From assembly GCA_937867625.1 (NCBI GenBank), contig CALMKR010000144.1, positions 1-33,058 of the forward strand: DNA of 33,058 nt, written 5' to 3'. The stretch is from an uncultured bacterium (GTDB lineage: Bacteria; Patescibacteriota; Minisyncoccia; Phycocordibacterales; UBA918). A program made the position numbers and the translations under genes. Of the stretch, positions 6,080 to 29,798 are shown one piece after another (within the stretch, counting starts at the first letter, position 1; the number at the start of each line of letters is the position of its first letter). The notes under the pieces were generated by a model. That model did not search any database, was not told the origin of the DNA, and saw nothing but the letters and a program-made list of their open reading frames with translations.

Positions 6080-6434
6080 CTTTAGACTCCTTAGTGATTA
6101 TTGAACGTTGTTGGGCGGCAAGGCTGTCATAGTCTTTATCGACTAACTCTTGTACTAAGTAAATACGTGACATTTTTCTTGTGTCGCTGCTCGGTTGGAG
6201 CGCATCTTTTAGTAGCCACTTGAAAGTTGCGTAGTCGCTTAATTCGGCTTTGTTCACCTCTTCTAGTACAAGTGAGGTGATTGCTTGGGCGGCTTCCTCA
6301 AGGTACTCTTTATTGCGTTCTCTGTAGATGTCTCCATACTCGTGTTCAGGATAGTAAGATTCGGCACAATAATCTATAATTTCTCTGACCTTTTCATCAA
6401 ATGTAGACTGTGGTGTTTGGTTGGGGGCGGTCAT
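6066..6434 (-). CDS. Hypothetical 122-aa acidic helical protein
   Basis: An acidic, predominantly helical protein (FDEKVREIIDYCAESYYPEH; helical to the end). Start ATG 6434 overlaps the stop of the 20-aa gene as ATGA and has AAAGGA upstream. I recognise no domain. It is one of the larger members of the early cassette. Confidence 0.68.
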   Translation of the reverse strand: MTAPNQTPQSTFDEKVREIIDYCAESYYPEHEYGDIYRERNKEYLEEAAQAITSLVLEEVNKAELSDYATFKWLLKDALQPSSDTRKMSRIYLVQELVDKDYDSLAAQQRSIITKESKDDRA

Positions 6435-6493
6435 GAGTAAAATCCTTTCGGGTGTCCTAGTGGGTCCCAGTCATCGTCTTGTCGTCTGCTCAT
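6431..6493 (-). CDS. 20-aa coupled peptide
   Basis: A very short frame, MSRRQDDDWDPLGHPKGFYS, with a strong AAGGAG ribosome site 6 bases before its ATG. Its TGA overlaps the start of the next gene (ATGA). It may be a real micro-protein or may mainly deliver ribosomes to the downstream start. Confidence 0.5.
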   Translation of the reverse strand: MSRRQDDDWDPLGHPKGFYS

Positions 6494-6507
6494 CTCACTC
6501 TCCTTCT

Positions 6508-6669
6508 TTAATCATTAAGTAAGTACACGCCCACTATCAGGAGTGCAATCATACAGGCGGCAATAGTGGCGGCAAGCGGAAACACCCACCAGTAACTAAC
6601 TATTGCCGTAGCCACCCATATTGCAATAAGCGGTAGAGATAGTATAAGTATTCCCAATAGTTTTAGCAT
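6508..6669 (-). CDS. Small two-pass membrane protein (53 aa)
   Basis: Two hydrophobic helices (residues about 3-24 and 29-49) separated by a short aromatic loop (SYWWVF) make almost the whole protein, and a short LND tail ends it. Such two-helix hairpins occur among holin-like, anti-holin and superinfection-exclusion proteins. No sequence family is recognised. It starts 4 bases after the preceding gene. Confidence 0.6.
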   Translation of the reverse strand: MLKLLGILILSLPLIAIWVATAIVSYWWVFPLAATIAACMIALLIVGVYLLND

Positions 6670-11929: not shown

Positions 11930-12279
11930 TACTCTAGCTTATCTTTGATTTGGTTGATTACTTGTTCCATTTTAACCGTGTAAAACTGAGTGAAGGTGTC
12001 GTACTTCTTCTTGCCTGATTGCTCCCACATAACGTATAGGACGGCTCGGAGGCGCTCAGAGGGTGATTTGCCCATATCGGTGTCAGCGTTAATCTCGGGT
12101 ACTTCTATGTTGCTCTCGGGATTCGGGGTGAAGGTAACATACCCCACTAGCTGTCTGTAGCTGAACAGGGCTGTCATGTCTTCACCGTTTAGCTCCTGTG
12201 TCTCAATACTCAACTTAATAGAGCCGTCTACTCTGGTTTCAATCTTCGCCAGTTGTGCTGGGAATTGTACGGCTTTCAC
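11929..12279 (-). CDS. Hypothetical 116-aa protein following the ERF gene
   Basis: Starts at GTG 12279, sharing a base with the ERF stop (TAGTG). Beta-rich N-terminal half (AKIETRVDGSIKLSIETQEL) and a helical C-terminus (FTQFYTVKMEQVINQIKDKL). In many phages a small partner of this kind follows the annealing protein, so a role in recombination or replication is likely by context only. Confidence 0.7.
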   Translation of the reverse strand: MKAVQFPAQLAKIETRVDGSIKLSIETQELNGEDMTALFSYRQLVGYVTFTPNPESNIEVPEINADTDMGKSPSERLRAVLYVMWEQSGKKKYDTFTQFYTVKMEQVINQIKDKLE

Positions 12280-12878
12280 TACGCCTCGTTCTCTAGCGCA
12301 TCCATCACAAGGTTAGCGTCGTCTATGCTGTCTATAGTCTCCTTGCTTAGTACGCCCTTTATAAATGCTTTCTTACTGTCTACGGTTAAGTAGTCGTGAC
12401 CAACGAGAGTATCGTTAATAACACCCTTAGCTCGCTTTAGTTCATCGGCTTCTGCTTCGTATTGCTCGGCTGCACGATCACGGATGACTGGTGTAGGCTT
12501 TGCCTTCACTTGCTCACCCGCTGCGTCTGCGTCTGCGTCTGTAATCAGTCCGAGCATAGAGCTAAGTGAGTAGCGACGTAGGTATGTGATAGCTGAACCG
12601 AGTACCTGAAAGTCGTTCATCCCTTTAAGCTGTACGCCCTGTGGTATGTCTGCAAACCCTTCGATAGATTCGCCCGACTCTGCGTGGAAGATGATTGTCT
12701 TTACTGTTGTACCGACAAGTGGCTGTGCGTAACCAAGCCCATGCTTTGCAAGTATCGGTTTAATGACATCGTTAATCTCACCGAGGTCTGCAAATGTATA
12801 GCTGTAGCCTTTAGCGTTCTTATAGATGTTTGGTACGTCTTGCTGAAAAGCTGCAAGTGCTTTGTATAGTTCTTTCAT
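12279..12878 (-). CDS. erf: ERF-family single-strand annealing protein
   Basis: A 199-residue recombination protein of the ERF superfamily, which anneals complementary single strands and helps circularise or repair phage DNA. Family hallmarks are the N-terminal LYKALAAFQQDVPNIYKNAK, then YSYTFADLGEINDVIKPILA, and the core MNDFQVLGSAITYLRRYSLS with SSMLGLITDADADA. The C-terminal third is variable and acidic, as usual. Its ATG overlaps the stop of the 30-aa gene (TAATG). Co-transcribed with an HNH nuclease. Confidence 0.95.
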   Translation of the reverse strand: MKELYKALAAFQQDVPNIYKNAKGYSYTFADLGEINDVIKPILAKHGLGYAQPLVGTTVKTIIFHAESGESIEGFADIPQGVQLKGMNDFQVLGSAITYLRRYSLSSMLGLITDADADAAGEQVKAKPTPVIRDRAAEQYEAEADELKRAKGVINDTLVGHDYLTVDSKKAFIKGVLSKETIDSIDDANLVMDALENEA

Positions 12879-13039: not shown

Positions 13040-13068
13040 TTGAAGTTTTCCACTATATTTGGTATACT
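13040..13068 (+). promoter_or_regulatory. Promoter of small RNA unit D
   Basis: TTGAAG (13040-13045), 17-base spacer, TATACT (13063-13068). It faces away from P1, with only 11 bases between the two -35 boxes, so one regulator could control both. Confidence 0.62.
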
Positions 13069-13074
13069 GTTGCC

Positions 13075-13134
13075 AAACACCCTCGTTATATACCTCCACG
13101 TATATCTAGTCTTTCATTGGCGGGGGTGTTTTTC
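13075..13134 (+). ncRNA. Small RNA D, candidate antisense regulator of early leaders
   Basis: About 60 nt. The ends form an 11-bp stem AAACACCCTCG/CGGGGGTGTTT (13075-13085 with 13121-13131, one G-U) followed by a U run, so it also terminates itself. The loop holds an inner hairpin ATATAC/GTATAT whose loop is CUCCAC, then CUAGUCUUUCAUUGG. Positions 13102-13119 can pair without interruption (two G-U) with the ribosome site and start region of the cassette 3 leader (8360-8377), and nearly so with the other two. Alternatively the minus strand here is a further decayed copy of the leader. Confidence 0.6.
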
Positions 13135-13136
13135 TA

Positions 13137-13313
13137 TTGACCTTCTATCATGCTTGTGCTAACATGTAACCATTATCAGGATGCTACTTTAAGTAGACTA
13201 CCCTTCCAGATACGCACCTTTGGCGCAATACTCGCATTACGGCACACCCTCCGCTGTGATGCTACTCGACTAAACCCTCCGTTACTGCTCTACTGCAGCC
13301 AGGAGGGTTTTAC
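13137..13313 (+). ncRNA. Small RNA unit E with promoter and terminator
   Basis: Promoter TTGACC (13137-13142), 17 bases, TGC-TAACAT (13160-13165). The RNA would run from about 13172 to the terminator AAACCCTCC/GGAGGGTTT (9-bp stem, 13272-13280 with 13302-13310) plus TTTT. Inside lies a CACA/TGTG hairpin whose loop CCCUCCGC is also rich in CCUCC. No convincing gene is present: the plus-strand frame crossing it lacks a ribosome site and family. Confidence 0.55.
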
Positions 13314-13317
13314 TTAT

Positions 13318-13423
13318 GGTATAATTAAGTGTTACTTTCGAGTATAGCACCTGTTCGATCAACTCATGTTTTGTTGGTTGATCGCGCATTAGAAGTCCTA
13401 TGGGCTTCTTTTGTTTTATTTTG
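13318..13423 (+). ncRNA. Small RNA unit F with promoter and strong terminator
   Basis: Extended -10 TGG-TATAAT (13320-13325) directly follows unit E's terminator. The RNA has an 8-bp hairpin CGATCAAC/GTTGATCG (13356-13384) and ends at an 8-bp stem AGAAGTCC/GGGCTTCT with a 3-base loop and a long T run (13391-13423). No gene seen. Confidence 0.58.
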
Positions 13424-13472
13424 CTATATGTGGTGGTTGATTCATAACGCTTATGGGTGTATGATTGTAACA

Positions 13473-13504
13473 GTATTTAGCTTTCCTTGTCGGGGGTTAA
13501 ATAC
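13473..13504. repeat. Hairpin with repeated 14-base motif
   Basis: GTATTTA/TAAATAC forms a 7-bp stem (13473-13479 with 13498-13504). The loop contains TAGCTTTCCTTGTC (13478-13491), repeated exactly at 13542-13555. On the minus strand each copy reads GACAAGGAAAGCTA, which contains a Shine-Dalgarno-like AAGGA without a start codon. A weak -10 at 13425 could transcribe it on the plus strand, and the promoter at 13563 on the minus strand. Confidence 0.5.
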
Positions 13505-13562
13505 TAAAAGGTAATAGAAATACCCGCTCTTGCGAACGGGCTAGCTTTCCTTGTCTGTACTC

Positions 13563-13591
13563 AGTATAGCAAAGAATAATCTATTATGCAA
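13563..13591 (-). promoter_or_regulatory. Minus-strand promoter in the control region
   Basis: TTGCAT (13586-13591), 17 bases, TGC-TATACT (13563-13568). The transcript would carry both copies of the GACAAGGAAAGCTA motif and the hairpin. No gene start follows, so it would make a non-coding or attenuated RNA opposite units E-F. Confidence 0.5.
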
Positions 13592-13725
13592 GTGTTGGGG
13601 AGTCCCTGACTGTTGGCTTTAGGTGACACGTTAAATTGACCTATAAAACAGCTCAACGTTTTAGACTATCGTAAAGTCTGCATTGTACTGAATACACGCA
13701 CTTTAACATATGATATAGTTTGACT

Positions 13726-13824
13726 ATGACGAAACGAATTGTTCACATCACTACTTCTAATAATCCTATCGGTTACGACTGGGAATACGAAGAGTCTGAT
13801 GTACCTACATTTGTAAACTTGTAA
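13726..13824 (+). CDS. 32-aa plus-strand peptide, apparently leaderless
   Basis: ATG 13726 lies 6 bases after a -10 TATAGT (13714-13719), so transcription should start at the ATG itself. No ribosome site is possible. The product starts MTKRIVHITTSNNPIGYDWE, is acidic at the end and ends FVNL. The AT-rich upstream region lacks a good -35. Real expression is uncertain. Confidence 0.48.
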   Translation: MTKRIVHITTSNNPIGYDWEYEESDVPTFVNL

Positions 13825-13956
13825 TCAAAACCTATTCAGGGATTGCTTCAATACTTAACTCCCCCGCTATTTACAGTGAGGTTATGGGAGCGCTTAGAGT
13901 GCCGTGTAATAACCACAATATGCACACCAGTCTCAGAAGCCTATAATTAAAAGACT

Positions 13957-14118
13957 ATGAACGCCAATGAACTACTCACACCACTAATGTCCCTTGAAGA
14001 GAAGCTAGAGGCTATTGATAAAGCTATGGAGCTAGCTATGGCAAAACAGAGAATAGACTCGGGGGTTGAAGTGCCGATCGACCCAGCAGAACTTCTGTCT
14101 TGCTCGTCTTGCCAGTGA
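13957..14118 (+). CDS. 53-aa plus-strand protein with C-terminal Cys pair
   Basis: ATG 13957 follows TATAAT (13942-13947) by 9 bases, so its mRNA would have almost no leader. The protein is helical and acidic (LEEKLEAIDKAMELAMAKQR) and ends in SCSSCQ, a CxxC. The same GACTATGA context surrounds the start of the 32-aa gene. A minus-strand frame over the same bases looks like a shadow. Confidence 0.52.
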   Translation: MNANELLTPLMSLEEKLEAIDKAMELAMAKQRIDSGVEVPIDPAELLSCSSCQ

Positions 14119-14204
14119 GTGATATAATAAGCTAGCAACACTGACTAAGCTACCTTCCTGGTAAACAGGTCAAAAAGCAACCCTAGCTAAATACTAGGGT
14201 TTTT
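14119..14204 (+). ncRNA. Small RNA unit A
   Basis: Extended -10 TGA-TATAAT (14123-14128) starts just after the 53-aa stop. The RNA of about 70 nt has a CCTG/CAGG hairpin, then AAAAAGC and the terminator AACCCTAG/CTAGGGTT (14179-14186 with 14194-14201) with TTTTT. It is the first of three consecutive units of the same design. Confidence 0.6.
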
Positions 14205-14271
14205 GCTATAATGAAGTAGTTCTATCGAGGGAAACAAAACAGCACCCACCTTGAAATATAGGTGGGTGTTT
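14205..14271 (+). ncRNA. Small RNA unit B
   Basis: TGC-TATAAT (14207-14212) overlaps the T run of unit A's terminator. The RNA is about 50 nt, with GAGGGAAACAAAACAGC and then the terminator CACCCACCT/AGGTGGGTG (9 bp, 14243-14251 with 14260-14268), followed by a short T run. Confidence 0.58.
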
Positions 14272-14345
14272 GCTATAGTGGAATAGTCCGTCAAGACACA
14301 TTTCGGTAAGACACAAAGCAACCCACGCCTAGTACGTGGGTTTTT
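14272..14345 (+). ncRNA. Small RNA unit C
   Basis: TGC-TATAGT (14274-14279) again follows immediately on the preceding terminator. The RNA is about 60 nt, with AAGACACATTTCGGTAAGAC, then AAAGC and the terminator AACCCACG/CGTGGGTT (14320-14327 with 14335-14342) with TTTTT. Confidence 0.6.
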
Positions 14346-14400
14346 GCTTTACTTGCCGCTCCTGTGTCTAAATATTACACACGAACATTGTGGGACGTTT

Positions 14401-14949: not shown

Positions 14950-15007
14950 CAGCAAACTCTATCTCGCCCTGCTGTTCTAGGGACTGTTCAGTGTGATTGT
15001 GTTCCAC
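14939..15007 (-). CDS. 22-aa acidic peptide (tentative)
   Basis: GTG 15007 inside the end of the phosphoesterase gene, with AGGA 7 bases before it, encodes MEHNHTEQSLEQQGEIEFAD and two more residues. It overlaps the next start by 11 bases. It fits the packed gene style, but a peptide this small could be chance. Confidence 0.3.
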   Translation of the reverse strand: MEHNHTEQSLEQQGEIEFADGQ

Positions 15008-16253
15008 CGAAAGTCCTGCCTTGATAGTGAATGACACCGTTATGGATTGGCACTTGGTCGAACTGGTACTTGCCGTCGCCGTAGTCGTAAATTACCATCA
15101 CGCCGTTTTGCCAGTTCTCGTGCCTATGTACAGGTTGGTTTTCACCTACAGATGACCAGTAGCTAGGCACTACGCCGTCAGTCCTACAGAGTGCACCGAC
15201 AACAAAAGCACCAAACTGCTTACCCCTGCGAGTTGTCTGGTAGTGGGACTCGATGGAATGCTTGTGTCCTTGTACGATGTTTCGGTCGTTGTTTACCTTA
15301 GATAGCTTTGCGGCGGTGCTTCCGCCAGATACAGCAAACGTCCCATGTATAAATGCGAGATCTTCCTTGTACTCAAACTCAGCAGCAGGGTAGCCGTCTA
15401 TGTACTCCCAGCCAATCTGGTCAAGTCTGAGTAGTCCTGGGTACGAAAGCGCGGCGTGTTTCTCGCCCACTTGCTTTACATTGTATAGTGCAGGAGCGTT
15501 ACGGAGGACGTAATCTGTTAATCGTTTAACGTGATTGCTTGCAACGGTGACACGGCGTTCTGCGTTAGGAGTAACGGCGGTGAACTCTGCAAAGAGGTCA
15601 TGTGTGCGCTGAAGAGAAGGCTGGAGGGTATGCTGGAAGTGGTCTGAATCGACAGGGTGACGTGATAGCTCCGCAAAGTCAGTCGTGTCTGCACAGTCTA
15701 CTACAAAGTCAGGATTAAGATGCTTTGCGAGTTGTAGGGCTGCATCAATTGATTGTTCGTCGTGTATAGGCACTAGCTCGTCGTCTATGCGCCTGTAGCC
15801 TATCTGAGCGTCTGAGAATACGAACAGGACTTTATGATCTCGTACAACGCCTCTAGCACGGCTAGGACGAATGATAGCTGCTTTGACTGGCTCGACTGAT
15901 AGTGTAGACTCGCCAGCCTTTTTACCAAAGTCTACGTGCGGAAGGGGTTTTGTATACTCAATCTCACCGTCTGCGTTACGAATATACCCTACGTGGAAGC
16001 CAGCTCGGTCTGCTTTTGCTAGGTCGTCTCTGGTAAGATTAATGCCAGCCTCTTTAAACGCCTCGGCAAGTCGGTCTAGTTCGTCTTTTTCTCCTTCGCC
16101 GTTTGGTAGCCGTTCCATAACCTCACCCAGTTTCTTTTTATATCGTTGCTTTGCTCTCATTATGCTGCCTTTAGATTGGTCTGCATATAGTAAAATTAAC
16201 TCGTCAATGTCCTTAGTAAGTAAGTTAGCTAAAGCCGCACCCTGCCATTTCAT
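14988..16253 (-). CDS. Metallophosphoesterase-like protein (421 aa)
   Basis: Two parts: a basic N-terminal helix-turn-helix-like region (residues 1-50, IDELILLYADQSKGSIMRAK) and a calcineurin-type phosphoesterase fold from about 140. Visible metal-site motifs are FSDAQIG (D148, with Q150 where the family has His), VDCADTTDF (D186/D189), VASNHVKR (N240-H241), IHGTF (H303) and QGHKHS (H330, H332). Related proteins are common in phages of Gram-positive hosts and may act on nucleic acids or nucleotides. The altered first motif may change metal use. Starts one base after the 16255 gene's stop. Confidence 0.82.
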   Translation of the reverse strand: MKWQGAALANLLTKDIDELILLYADQSKGSIMRAKQRYKKKLGEVMERLPNGEGEKDELDRLAEAFKEAGINLTRDDLAKADRAGFHVGYIRNADGEIEYTKPLPHVDFGKKAGESTLSVEPVKAAIIRPSRARGVVRDHKVLFVFSDAQIGYRRIDDELVPIHDEQSIDAALQLAKHLNPDFVVDCADTTDFAELSRHPVDSDHFQHTLQPSLQRTHDLFAEFTAVTPNAERRVTVASNHVKRLTDYVLRNAPALYNVKQVGEKHAALSYPGLLRLDQIGWEYIDGYPAAEFEYKEDLAFIHGTFAVSGGSTAAKLSKVNNDRNIVQGHKHSIESHYQTTRRGKQFGAFVVGALCRTDGVVPSYWSSVGENQPVHRHENWQNGVMVIYDYGDGKYQFDQVPIHNGVIHYQGRTFGGTQSH

Positions 16254-29161: not shown

Positions 29162-29213
29162 TGATTAGTTACAGTGTACCACAGTCTATACCGCATGTGA
29201 ATAGTAATAGTGC

Positions 29214-29243
29214 TTGACAAAACATAAGCAGTCGTGGTAGTGT
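29214..29243 (+). promoter_or_regulatory. Plus-strand promoter P4 with shared spacer motif
   Basis: TTGACA (29214-29219), spacer AAACATAAGCAGTCGTGG, then TAGTGT (29238-29243). The first 26 bases equal those of P3. The -10 is poor (3 of 6), and the A of ATG 29250 lies 7 bases downstream of it, so the mRNA should be leaderless. Unlike P1-P3 the shared leader is missing. Confidence 0.7.
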
Positions 29244-29249
29244 TCTAGT

Positions 29250-29798
29250 ATGAAGTTACTAATAAAAATCGTAATTGTTTTCACTCTTCTAGCAATACTA
29301 GGTGCAGGTGTTTTAACCTATCTCAGAGTTGGCAGTGAAGTAGCAAGTTTTAACTCGCGCACAGAGAGTGACGGGCAACTAATTCCGATACTTGAAGATG
29401 TTGCTATTGGTACTACAGATGAGCTGTCAATAATATACGATGATACACTAGAATACTCAGATGCAAAGGCCGTGTACTCGTCACTCACTATTTACGTAAA
29501 GCCTGGTATTGACCTTGAAAAAAGTAAGGTTGTGATTGCTCACGAATACCTCCACTACGTTTGGTACGAGATGATGACCGAAGGGCAAAGAAGTACTGTT
29601 ACAAGTAAGGTGATCGGTCTTTACGCTAAAGACATAGCCACGCAAACACGCACTATTCCGTACCAGAATACGAATACGCTGCTACCTACCGAGCTATTCA
29701 GCATCTACTGTACCGAGTCAAGTGATAAGTATATTGCCACCATCCTAGATGATTGTAGTAAGTATATTGATCGCTCCAAGCTAGTACTAGTGCGCTAG
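29250..29798 (+). CDS. Membrane-anchored HExxH metallopeptidase-like protein (182 aa)
   Basis: The only large plus-strand gene. An N-terminal signal/membrane helix (about residues 3-24, LLIKIVIVFTLLAILGAGVL) is followed by an extracytoplasmic domain with VVIAHEYLHYVW, a zinc HExxH at H98-E99-H102. A later LPTELFS (E148) could give the third ligand, as in gluzincins, and C155/C169 could pair. It sits alone in antisense inside the virion operon behind P4, like a moron. Possible roles are cell-wall or superinfection effects. The substrate is unknown, and so is the exact peptidase family. Confidence 0.74.
   Translation: MKLLIKIVIVFTLLAILGAGVLTYLRVGSEVASFNSRTESDGQLIPILEDVAIGTTDELSIIYDDTLEYSDAKAVYSSLTIYVKPGIDLEKSKVVIAHEYLHYVWYEMMTEGQRSTVTSKVIGLYAKDIATQTRTIPYQNTNTLLPTELFSIYCTESSDKYIATILDDCSKYIDRSKLVLVR

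Follow-up and report, generated by a model that had tools for sequence, protein, structure and literature searches.

The 2.1-kb control region between an Erf-like gene and a metallo-phosphoesterase gene of an uncultivated phage is quite probably an RNA-based regulatory hub, placed between the leftward and rightward operons, in which two putative small RNAs, D and Y, would act as antisense regulators. The interest of the region lies in the targets of the two systems, which are the ribosome-binding sites (RBSs) of operons that are probably early in the case of D, and a leader hairpin, X, in the case of Y. In ten phages, both complementarities are preserved while the sequences of the partners change.

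Organization of the control region

The window, that is, the whole stretch of DNA analysed here, is an entire contig of 33 kb, in which the genes run almost all leftward. Nine relatives of 35-47 kb (L017-L022/L023, L024, L109, and L112), which make up ten phages together with the window, were gathered from viral contigs with three queries, namely the Erf protein, a block of conserved DNA, and the product of a small ORF (53 aa). The control regions of these relatives have diverged beyond ordinary DNA alignment except in short blocks, and the layout is kept across them, with a divergent promoter pair, D, unit E, X/Y, a conserved rightward transcript that may be noncoding or coding, and a small rightward ORF. 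The features are listed in Table 1, where promoters and transcription starts are predicted from the -10/-35 consensus, which may not be that of the host.

Table 1. Coordinates of the features in the window; fold z compares the folding of each unit with that of shuffled sequences.
Feature	Position	Strand	Description
P2	8359-8421	-	Promoter, and RBS complementary to D (CAATGAAAGGTTAGATATG, 8377-8359)
First gene of P2	8361-8182	-	59 aa
P3	11362-11505	-	Promoter TTGACA-18-TATACT and noncoding leader; D-complementary Shine-Dalgarno (SD) sequence at 11461-11447
Erf-like gene	12279-12878	-	
Leader gene of P1	12970-12878	-	30 aa
P1	12968-13033	-	Promoter (-10 at 13005-13000), operator-like spacer, and leader whose RBS is complementary to D (CAATGAAAGGATTAGATATG, 12987-12968)
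Unit D	13040-13133 (RNA 13075-13133)	+	Promoter TTGAAG-17-TATACT, extended -10 GGTATACTG (13063); predicted antisense sRNA of ~60 nt; 5'/3' closing stem AAACACCCUCG/CGGGGGUGUUU; antisense loop segment 13100-13119; fold z -4.0
Unit E	13137-13316 (RNA 13172-13316)	+	Promoter and structured RNA of ~145 nt; fold z -4.4
Unit F	13318-13418 (RNA 13332-13418)	+	RNA of ~85 nt, two hairpins; fold z -3.5
X	13472-13505	+	Hairpin close to the 5' end of transcript G, with AGCUUUCCUUGUCGGGGG on its loop side; fold z -3.7
Y	13518-13575 (RNA 13562-13518)	-	Promoter (-10 TATACT), predicted sRNA of ~45 nt, terminator; 5' seed GACAAGGAAAGCUA; fold z -2.8
Transcript G, conserved noncoding part	13584-13912	+	Blocks 13584-13692 and 13835-13912
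Small ORF	13958-14119	+	53 aa, with conserved counterparts in L017, L024, and L112
Units A, B, and C	14128-14347	+	Three cassettes of promoter and terminator behind the small ORF; fold z -2.6 (A), -3.8 (B), -1.5 (C)
Metallo-phosphoesterase gene	14988-16253	-	

A search of the window and three relatives against Rfam gave no match at all, with no score above the gathering threshold, a tRNA search of the window and the relatives found none, and a DNA similarity search in the phage collection found nothing. When genome contigs were searched for the host, only distant Erf matches were recovered, in metagenome-assembled genomes (MAGs) of Bacteroidota. The two 16S rRNA sequences of the MAG of the window (L097 and L098) end in GGATTAATTC, not GGATCACCTCC, and have no recognisable anti-SD, although the SDs of the phage genes are strong, so the phage contig may be mis-binned.

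Complementarity between D and the leftward leaders

In all ten phages, the 5' part of D pairs with its 3' part around a loop region of 30-65 nt, and the closing stem differs in sequence from phage to phage with its pairing kept in every case. The free sequence drift in the stems that the initial annotation had named as evidence against its small RNAs is thus not what is seen in D. The antisense segment is mostly unpaired in the folded RNAs, and the D loop contains a segment in reverse complement to the SD region of the leftward operon next to it, in which P1 drives a short leader gene and then the Erf-like gene (duplex of -26.6 kcal/mol in the window). A scan of all RBSs located P2, at the head of a second leftward operon some 4 kb away and before its first gene, which is the best match to D in the window by pairing score, with 19 contiguous pairs, three of them G-U. 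A third matching leader, P3, turned up in a whole-genome scan for D matches. The start codon lies 5-12 nt past the SD in 19 of the 19 P1 and P2 leaders, and the D loop, held open by its closing stem, would pair with the SD/start region of the first genes of P1 and P2, blocking the translation of the P1 (Erf) and P2 operons.

The duplexes between D and the leaders of the same phage (loop only) have energies of -22.1 kcal/mol for P1, -22.4 for P2, and -22.9 for P3, as against -15.9, -14.7, and -15.7 kcal/mol in the non-cognate combinations. In permutations over 9-10 phages, with the boundaries of D and the leaders set by hand and in the same ten phages in which the match had first been spotted by eye, the cognate excess was reached in 0 of 200,000 cases for P1, with p = 5e-6 for both P2 and P3, and the joint permutation over the leaders likewise gave 0 of 200,000 (p < 5e-6). 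The control with the reverse complement of D was null (p 0.28-0.92). Given that the D loops of different phages are at most 62% alike, a recent common origin does not explain the match, which is instead maintained as both partners change.

A complementarity arising simply from anti-SD/SD composition, in which the CCUUUC of D would fit any RBS, is a very improbable explanation of these results. Almost all the D loops do have a core of this kind, which makes part of the raw duplex energy generic, and the non-cognate energies already reach -15 to -16 kcal/mol, but the cognate pairings exceed them at the p values given above, and still do so with the SD core masked (p = 0.0004). The core also changes in step in the two partners, from GAAAGG/CCUUUC to GAAGGG/CCCUUC, in L021 and L109, and, when ranked against D among the 36-61 SD-bearing RBSs of the same phage, P1 and P2 stand near the top in most cases. 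The respective ranks of P1 and P2 are 4 and 2 in the window, 1 and 2 in L017, 8 and 2 in L018, 4 and 1 in L019, 7 and 5 in L020, 2 and 5 in L021, 23 and 3 in L022, 2 and 4 in L024, and 1 and 2 in L112, while L109 is represented by P1 only (rank 2). The match to D is a short core only in some phages, such as L022 at P1 and L020 at both leaders, and extends to a near-perfect complementarity of 20 nt at P1, P2, and P3 in L112. Full-energy duplex scans of the window by itself did not single out P1 and P2, so the case for D and its leaders rests on the comparison across phages; the whole-window duplex scans of each unit, in which GC-rich stems dominate, were uninformative.

The second pieces of L021 and L024 contain further promoters whose leaders resemble these (AGAAGGGATTAATAATG and GAAAGGAACGTTATG), which suggests that, in some relatives, the number of operons responding to D exceeds three.

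The P3 leader

At P3, the SD sequence complementary to D is followed by no start codon in nine of the ten phages, the exception being L019, and the transcript continues into noncoding sequence that forms hairpins and is conserved in both the window and L112. Having the same promoter and SD as P1 and P2 without the start codon, P3 looks like a decoy, and a target mimic that titrates D appears to be the economical reading of the sequence, given that a cognate target of the sRNA is present without a productive start in these nine phages. The P3 transcript, from its operator-bearing promoter, would titrate D and lift the repression once the early promoters fire.

The chances are only slightly below even that P3 is, instead, the leader of a third operon, regulated by D through RNA stability or attenuation. 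An ORF with an SD lies ~140-150 nt downstream of P3 in the window and L112, and the start codon of L019 also points in this direction, but the paired site has none in the other nine phages, where the usual occlusion of the RBS cannot therefore apply. In one record of L022/L023 (L184 or L183), there is a tRNA-like stretch (GAGGGTTGCGTCC...TTCGAATCCAATACCCTC) about 115 nt into the P3 transcript, on which ARAGORN made no call.

The X-Y pair and the rightward transcript

The second antisense system includes a minus-strand unit, Y, that is missing from the list of units in the initial annotation, which also named no target. The seed of Y differs between phages, yet it is perfectly complementary to the loop side of X over 11-18 bp in each of the ten. 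The cognate X-Y duplexes have an energy of -22.9 kcal/mol, compared with -8.4 kcal/mol in the non-cognate pairs, and the cognate partner ranks first in all ten phages, with X and Y boundaries that were picked after the complementarity had been seen; that all ten should have a perfect seed of this length is, however, far more than chance would give. Seven phages have Y convergent to X, while in L020, L021, and L024 it is in tandem with X on the same strand, and the two pair in both arrangements. By pairing with the X loop at the head of transcript G, the Y seed would lower G, independently of D.

In L020, the ORF directly behind X-Y matches a replication initiation protein in PHROG (6e-27) as well as HTH_36 (6.6e-10), and for this reason X-Y would probably set replication or copy number, which in the nine other phages, where no recognised replication gene follows X-Y, is proposed by analogy. 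HTH_36 was not found in the other eight relatives, and its single match in G000 lies on another contig (C193); similarly, DNA polymerase A had no match in the nine relatives, and the matches listed for G000 are on other contigs. Among the window proteins that were scanned, only the Erf-like annealing protein matched a replication protein family.

A conserved noncoding block follows X-Y in the window and six relatives, and a hairpin of transcript G (AGACU..AGUCU) retains its pairing through compensatory changes. Two unrelated classes of conserved noncoding block can be distinguished among positions 13584-13692 (+) of the window and the counterparts in L017, L019, and L112, while L019 and L022 share an extra, hairpin-rich insertion in the rightward transcript. 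These noncoding blocks are possibly structured RNAs or origins outside Rfam.

Operator-like sequences

The promoter spacers of P1-P3 share operator-like sequences that are specific to the phage, and in the window an exact 14-mer, CATAAGCAGTCGTG, is found at P2, P3, and position 29223. The last of these copies (29211-29240, +) has a TTGACA upstream and stands before a gene that runs rightward (29250-29798), well away from the control region. The promoter of D is without the shared operator, so D is probably constitutive.

This shared operator-like DNA, together with the frequency of inverted binding-site copies in phage control regions, might favor a different account, in which the matches of D to the leaders and of Y to X are operator repeats at the level of DNA, a phage DNA-binding protein recognises the leader sequence as well as its inverted copy within D, and the transcripts are irrelevant. 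This account is improbable, however, given that the operator-like sequence shared by the promoters occupies their spacers and lies outside the matched segment, which spans the SD up to the start codon and corresponds mostly to the unpaired loop of D. The orientation of D is, moreover, always antisense, as the reverse-complement control indicates, and Y still pairs with X after changes of position and strand.

The remaining units

The initial annotation described six or more tandem small-RNA cassettes of one design (units A-F), each with a promoter-like box and a terminator hairpin. These promoter and hairpin features are present in the sequence, and the close overlaps of a T run with the following -10 box are exact (TTTTTGCTATAAT at 14202 and GTTTGCTATAGT at 14269), but the units do not form one uniform array, given that they differ in structure and in conservation, and that B and C were seen only in the window phage; their roles probably differ from one another. 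In a consensus scan of 6 kb on both strands, there were 16 promoter-like sites, compared with 10.5 +/- 3.2 in shuffled sequences, and 10 terminator-like sites, compared with 5.1 +/- 2.5, an enrichment so modest that the array as a set is unproven from the window alone. Every unit except C folds clearly better than the shuffles.

Across the nine relatives, support for the small RNAs is firm for D, moderate for E, which is plausible as such an RNA, and weaker for F and A, with none for B and C; Y, outside this list, is well supported as a small RNA too. Unit E occupies the same position in nine of the ten phages, with a motif (CGCACCUU) that is exact in four of them and matched at seven of eight positions in three more. 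Tested against P1, P2, P3, X, Y, and D, it gave no cognate signal (p 0.12-0.63), and it may act on the host. A possible counterpart of F was seen in L018 only, and that of A in L017 only, behind the same small ORF. Of the two tiny leaderless ORFs annotated among the units, the one at 13958-14119 is conserved, whereas that at 13726 was not seen among the relatives. The search for targets of A, B, C, F, R1, and R2 found no convincing match at any RBS.

It is nearly an even proposition, though a little less than that, that A, B, and C, and in part E and F, are not sRNA genes but terminators, placed back to back and for the most part bidirectional, which shield the control region against convergent transcription, with a -10-like TATAAT that comes from the T-rich tail (TTTTTGCTATAAT). 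The A and C hairpins were flagged as terminators on both strands, and this reading also agrees with the fact that neither B nor C was seen in the relatives, that no complementary target was found, and that the excess of promoters is modest, and B and C, in particular, may be terminators with fortuitous -10 boxes. The conservation of E, with a motif of its own, argues in the other direction, as do the -10 boxes that follow terminators elsewhere, both at the E/F junction, where the TATAAT of F sits a few bases past the E terminator, and in several tandem units of L017. L017 also has several more promoter/terminator units in tandem (6120-6510), on the strand opposite to D and on the right side of the control region, where TATAAT again lies a few bases behind each terminator.

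The units differ in both sequence and structure, which speaks against an array of repeats such as a TIGR array (TIGR-Tas, with tandem repeats, interspersed guides, and a Nop-domain Tas protein).

Comparison with known systems

What is known of antisense immunity RNAs in phages comes from a few models, and two antisense systems have been traced here by co-variation through ten uncultivated phages that have no cultured model. One of these systems has three matched leaders per phage, including the apparent decoy. Together they provide a prediction at the level of base pairs for the control of the early genes, and suggest that the specificity groups of these phages may depend on RNA seeds and not on repressor proteins. 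The comparison of cognate and non-cognate pairing may also be a general way of finding the targets of phage sRNAs without expression data.

A broader and more tentative scheme, somewhat unlikely as a whole, would combine the silencing, by one antisense RNA at the RBSs, of several early operons, and a P3 transcript dedicated as its decoy, with a noncoding, RNA-primed replication origin under a second antisense pair that diverges rapidly, and the co-varying seeds would define immunity or incompatibility groups. If this were true, a lytic/latent or replication switch would be run largely by RNA, with an initiator gene replacing the RNA origin in one relative.

In satellite phage P4, the small CI RNA pairs with the early leader transcripts as the repressor of the phage itself, acting by premature transcription termination after being processed from a leader transcript, whereas D has its own predicted promoter and matches RBSs. 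The c4 RNA of phages P1 and P7 is an antisense RNA with target-complementary loops that acts in the RBS region of a phage gene and is important for heteroimmunity (PMC12197685). D, which in mechanism comes closest to c4 and P4 CI, likewise has a loop that complements RBS regions of phage transcripts, but c4 acts on ant and lies upstream in the ant transcript, whereas D is divergent and matches, in trans, the operon of the 30-aa leader gene and Erf, the 59-aa gene, and a third leader with no start. As D differs in its target, in its position, and in how many targets it has, it is not assigned to the c4/P4 CI type.

The prophage RNA AgvB mimics mRNA targets and titrates GcvB, an sRNA of the host (PMC12197685), whereas P3 would titrate the sRNA of the phage itself; no phage decoy of a phage sRNA was found in the literature searched, the coverage of which was incomplete.

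The X-Y pair is reminiscent of the counter-transcribed RNAs (ctRNAs) of plasmids, ColE1 RNA I/RNA II and pMV158 RNAII/repB, in that a short antisense RNA is combined with the leader of a putative replication transcript, which has an initiator gene only in L020. The convergence of Y with a noncoding transcript in seven phages is ColE1-like, and in L020 Y lies upstream of the initiator gene, but, unlike the plasmid ctRNAs, Y and X pair through a short seed, and they are in tandem on the same strand in three phages. In the prophages of cluster A mycobacteriophages, replication depends on an initiator protein in some phages and on a noncoding-RNA origin in related ones (Wetzel et al. 2020, PMC7157519), and a similar alternation is seen here between the initiator gene of L020 and the noncoding RNA of the others. 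The search here identified no parABS, and an extrachromosomal prophage state would be hypothetical in this group. The control region would best be read as an RNA-based switch for early genes and replication, akin to c4 of phage P1, CI of P4, and the plasmid ctRNAs.
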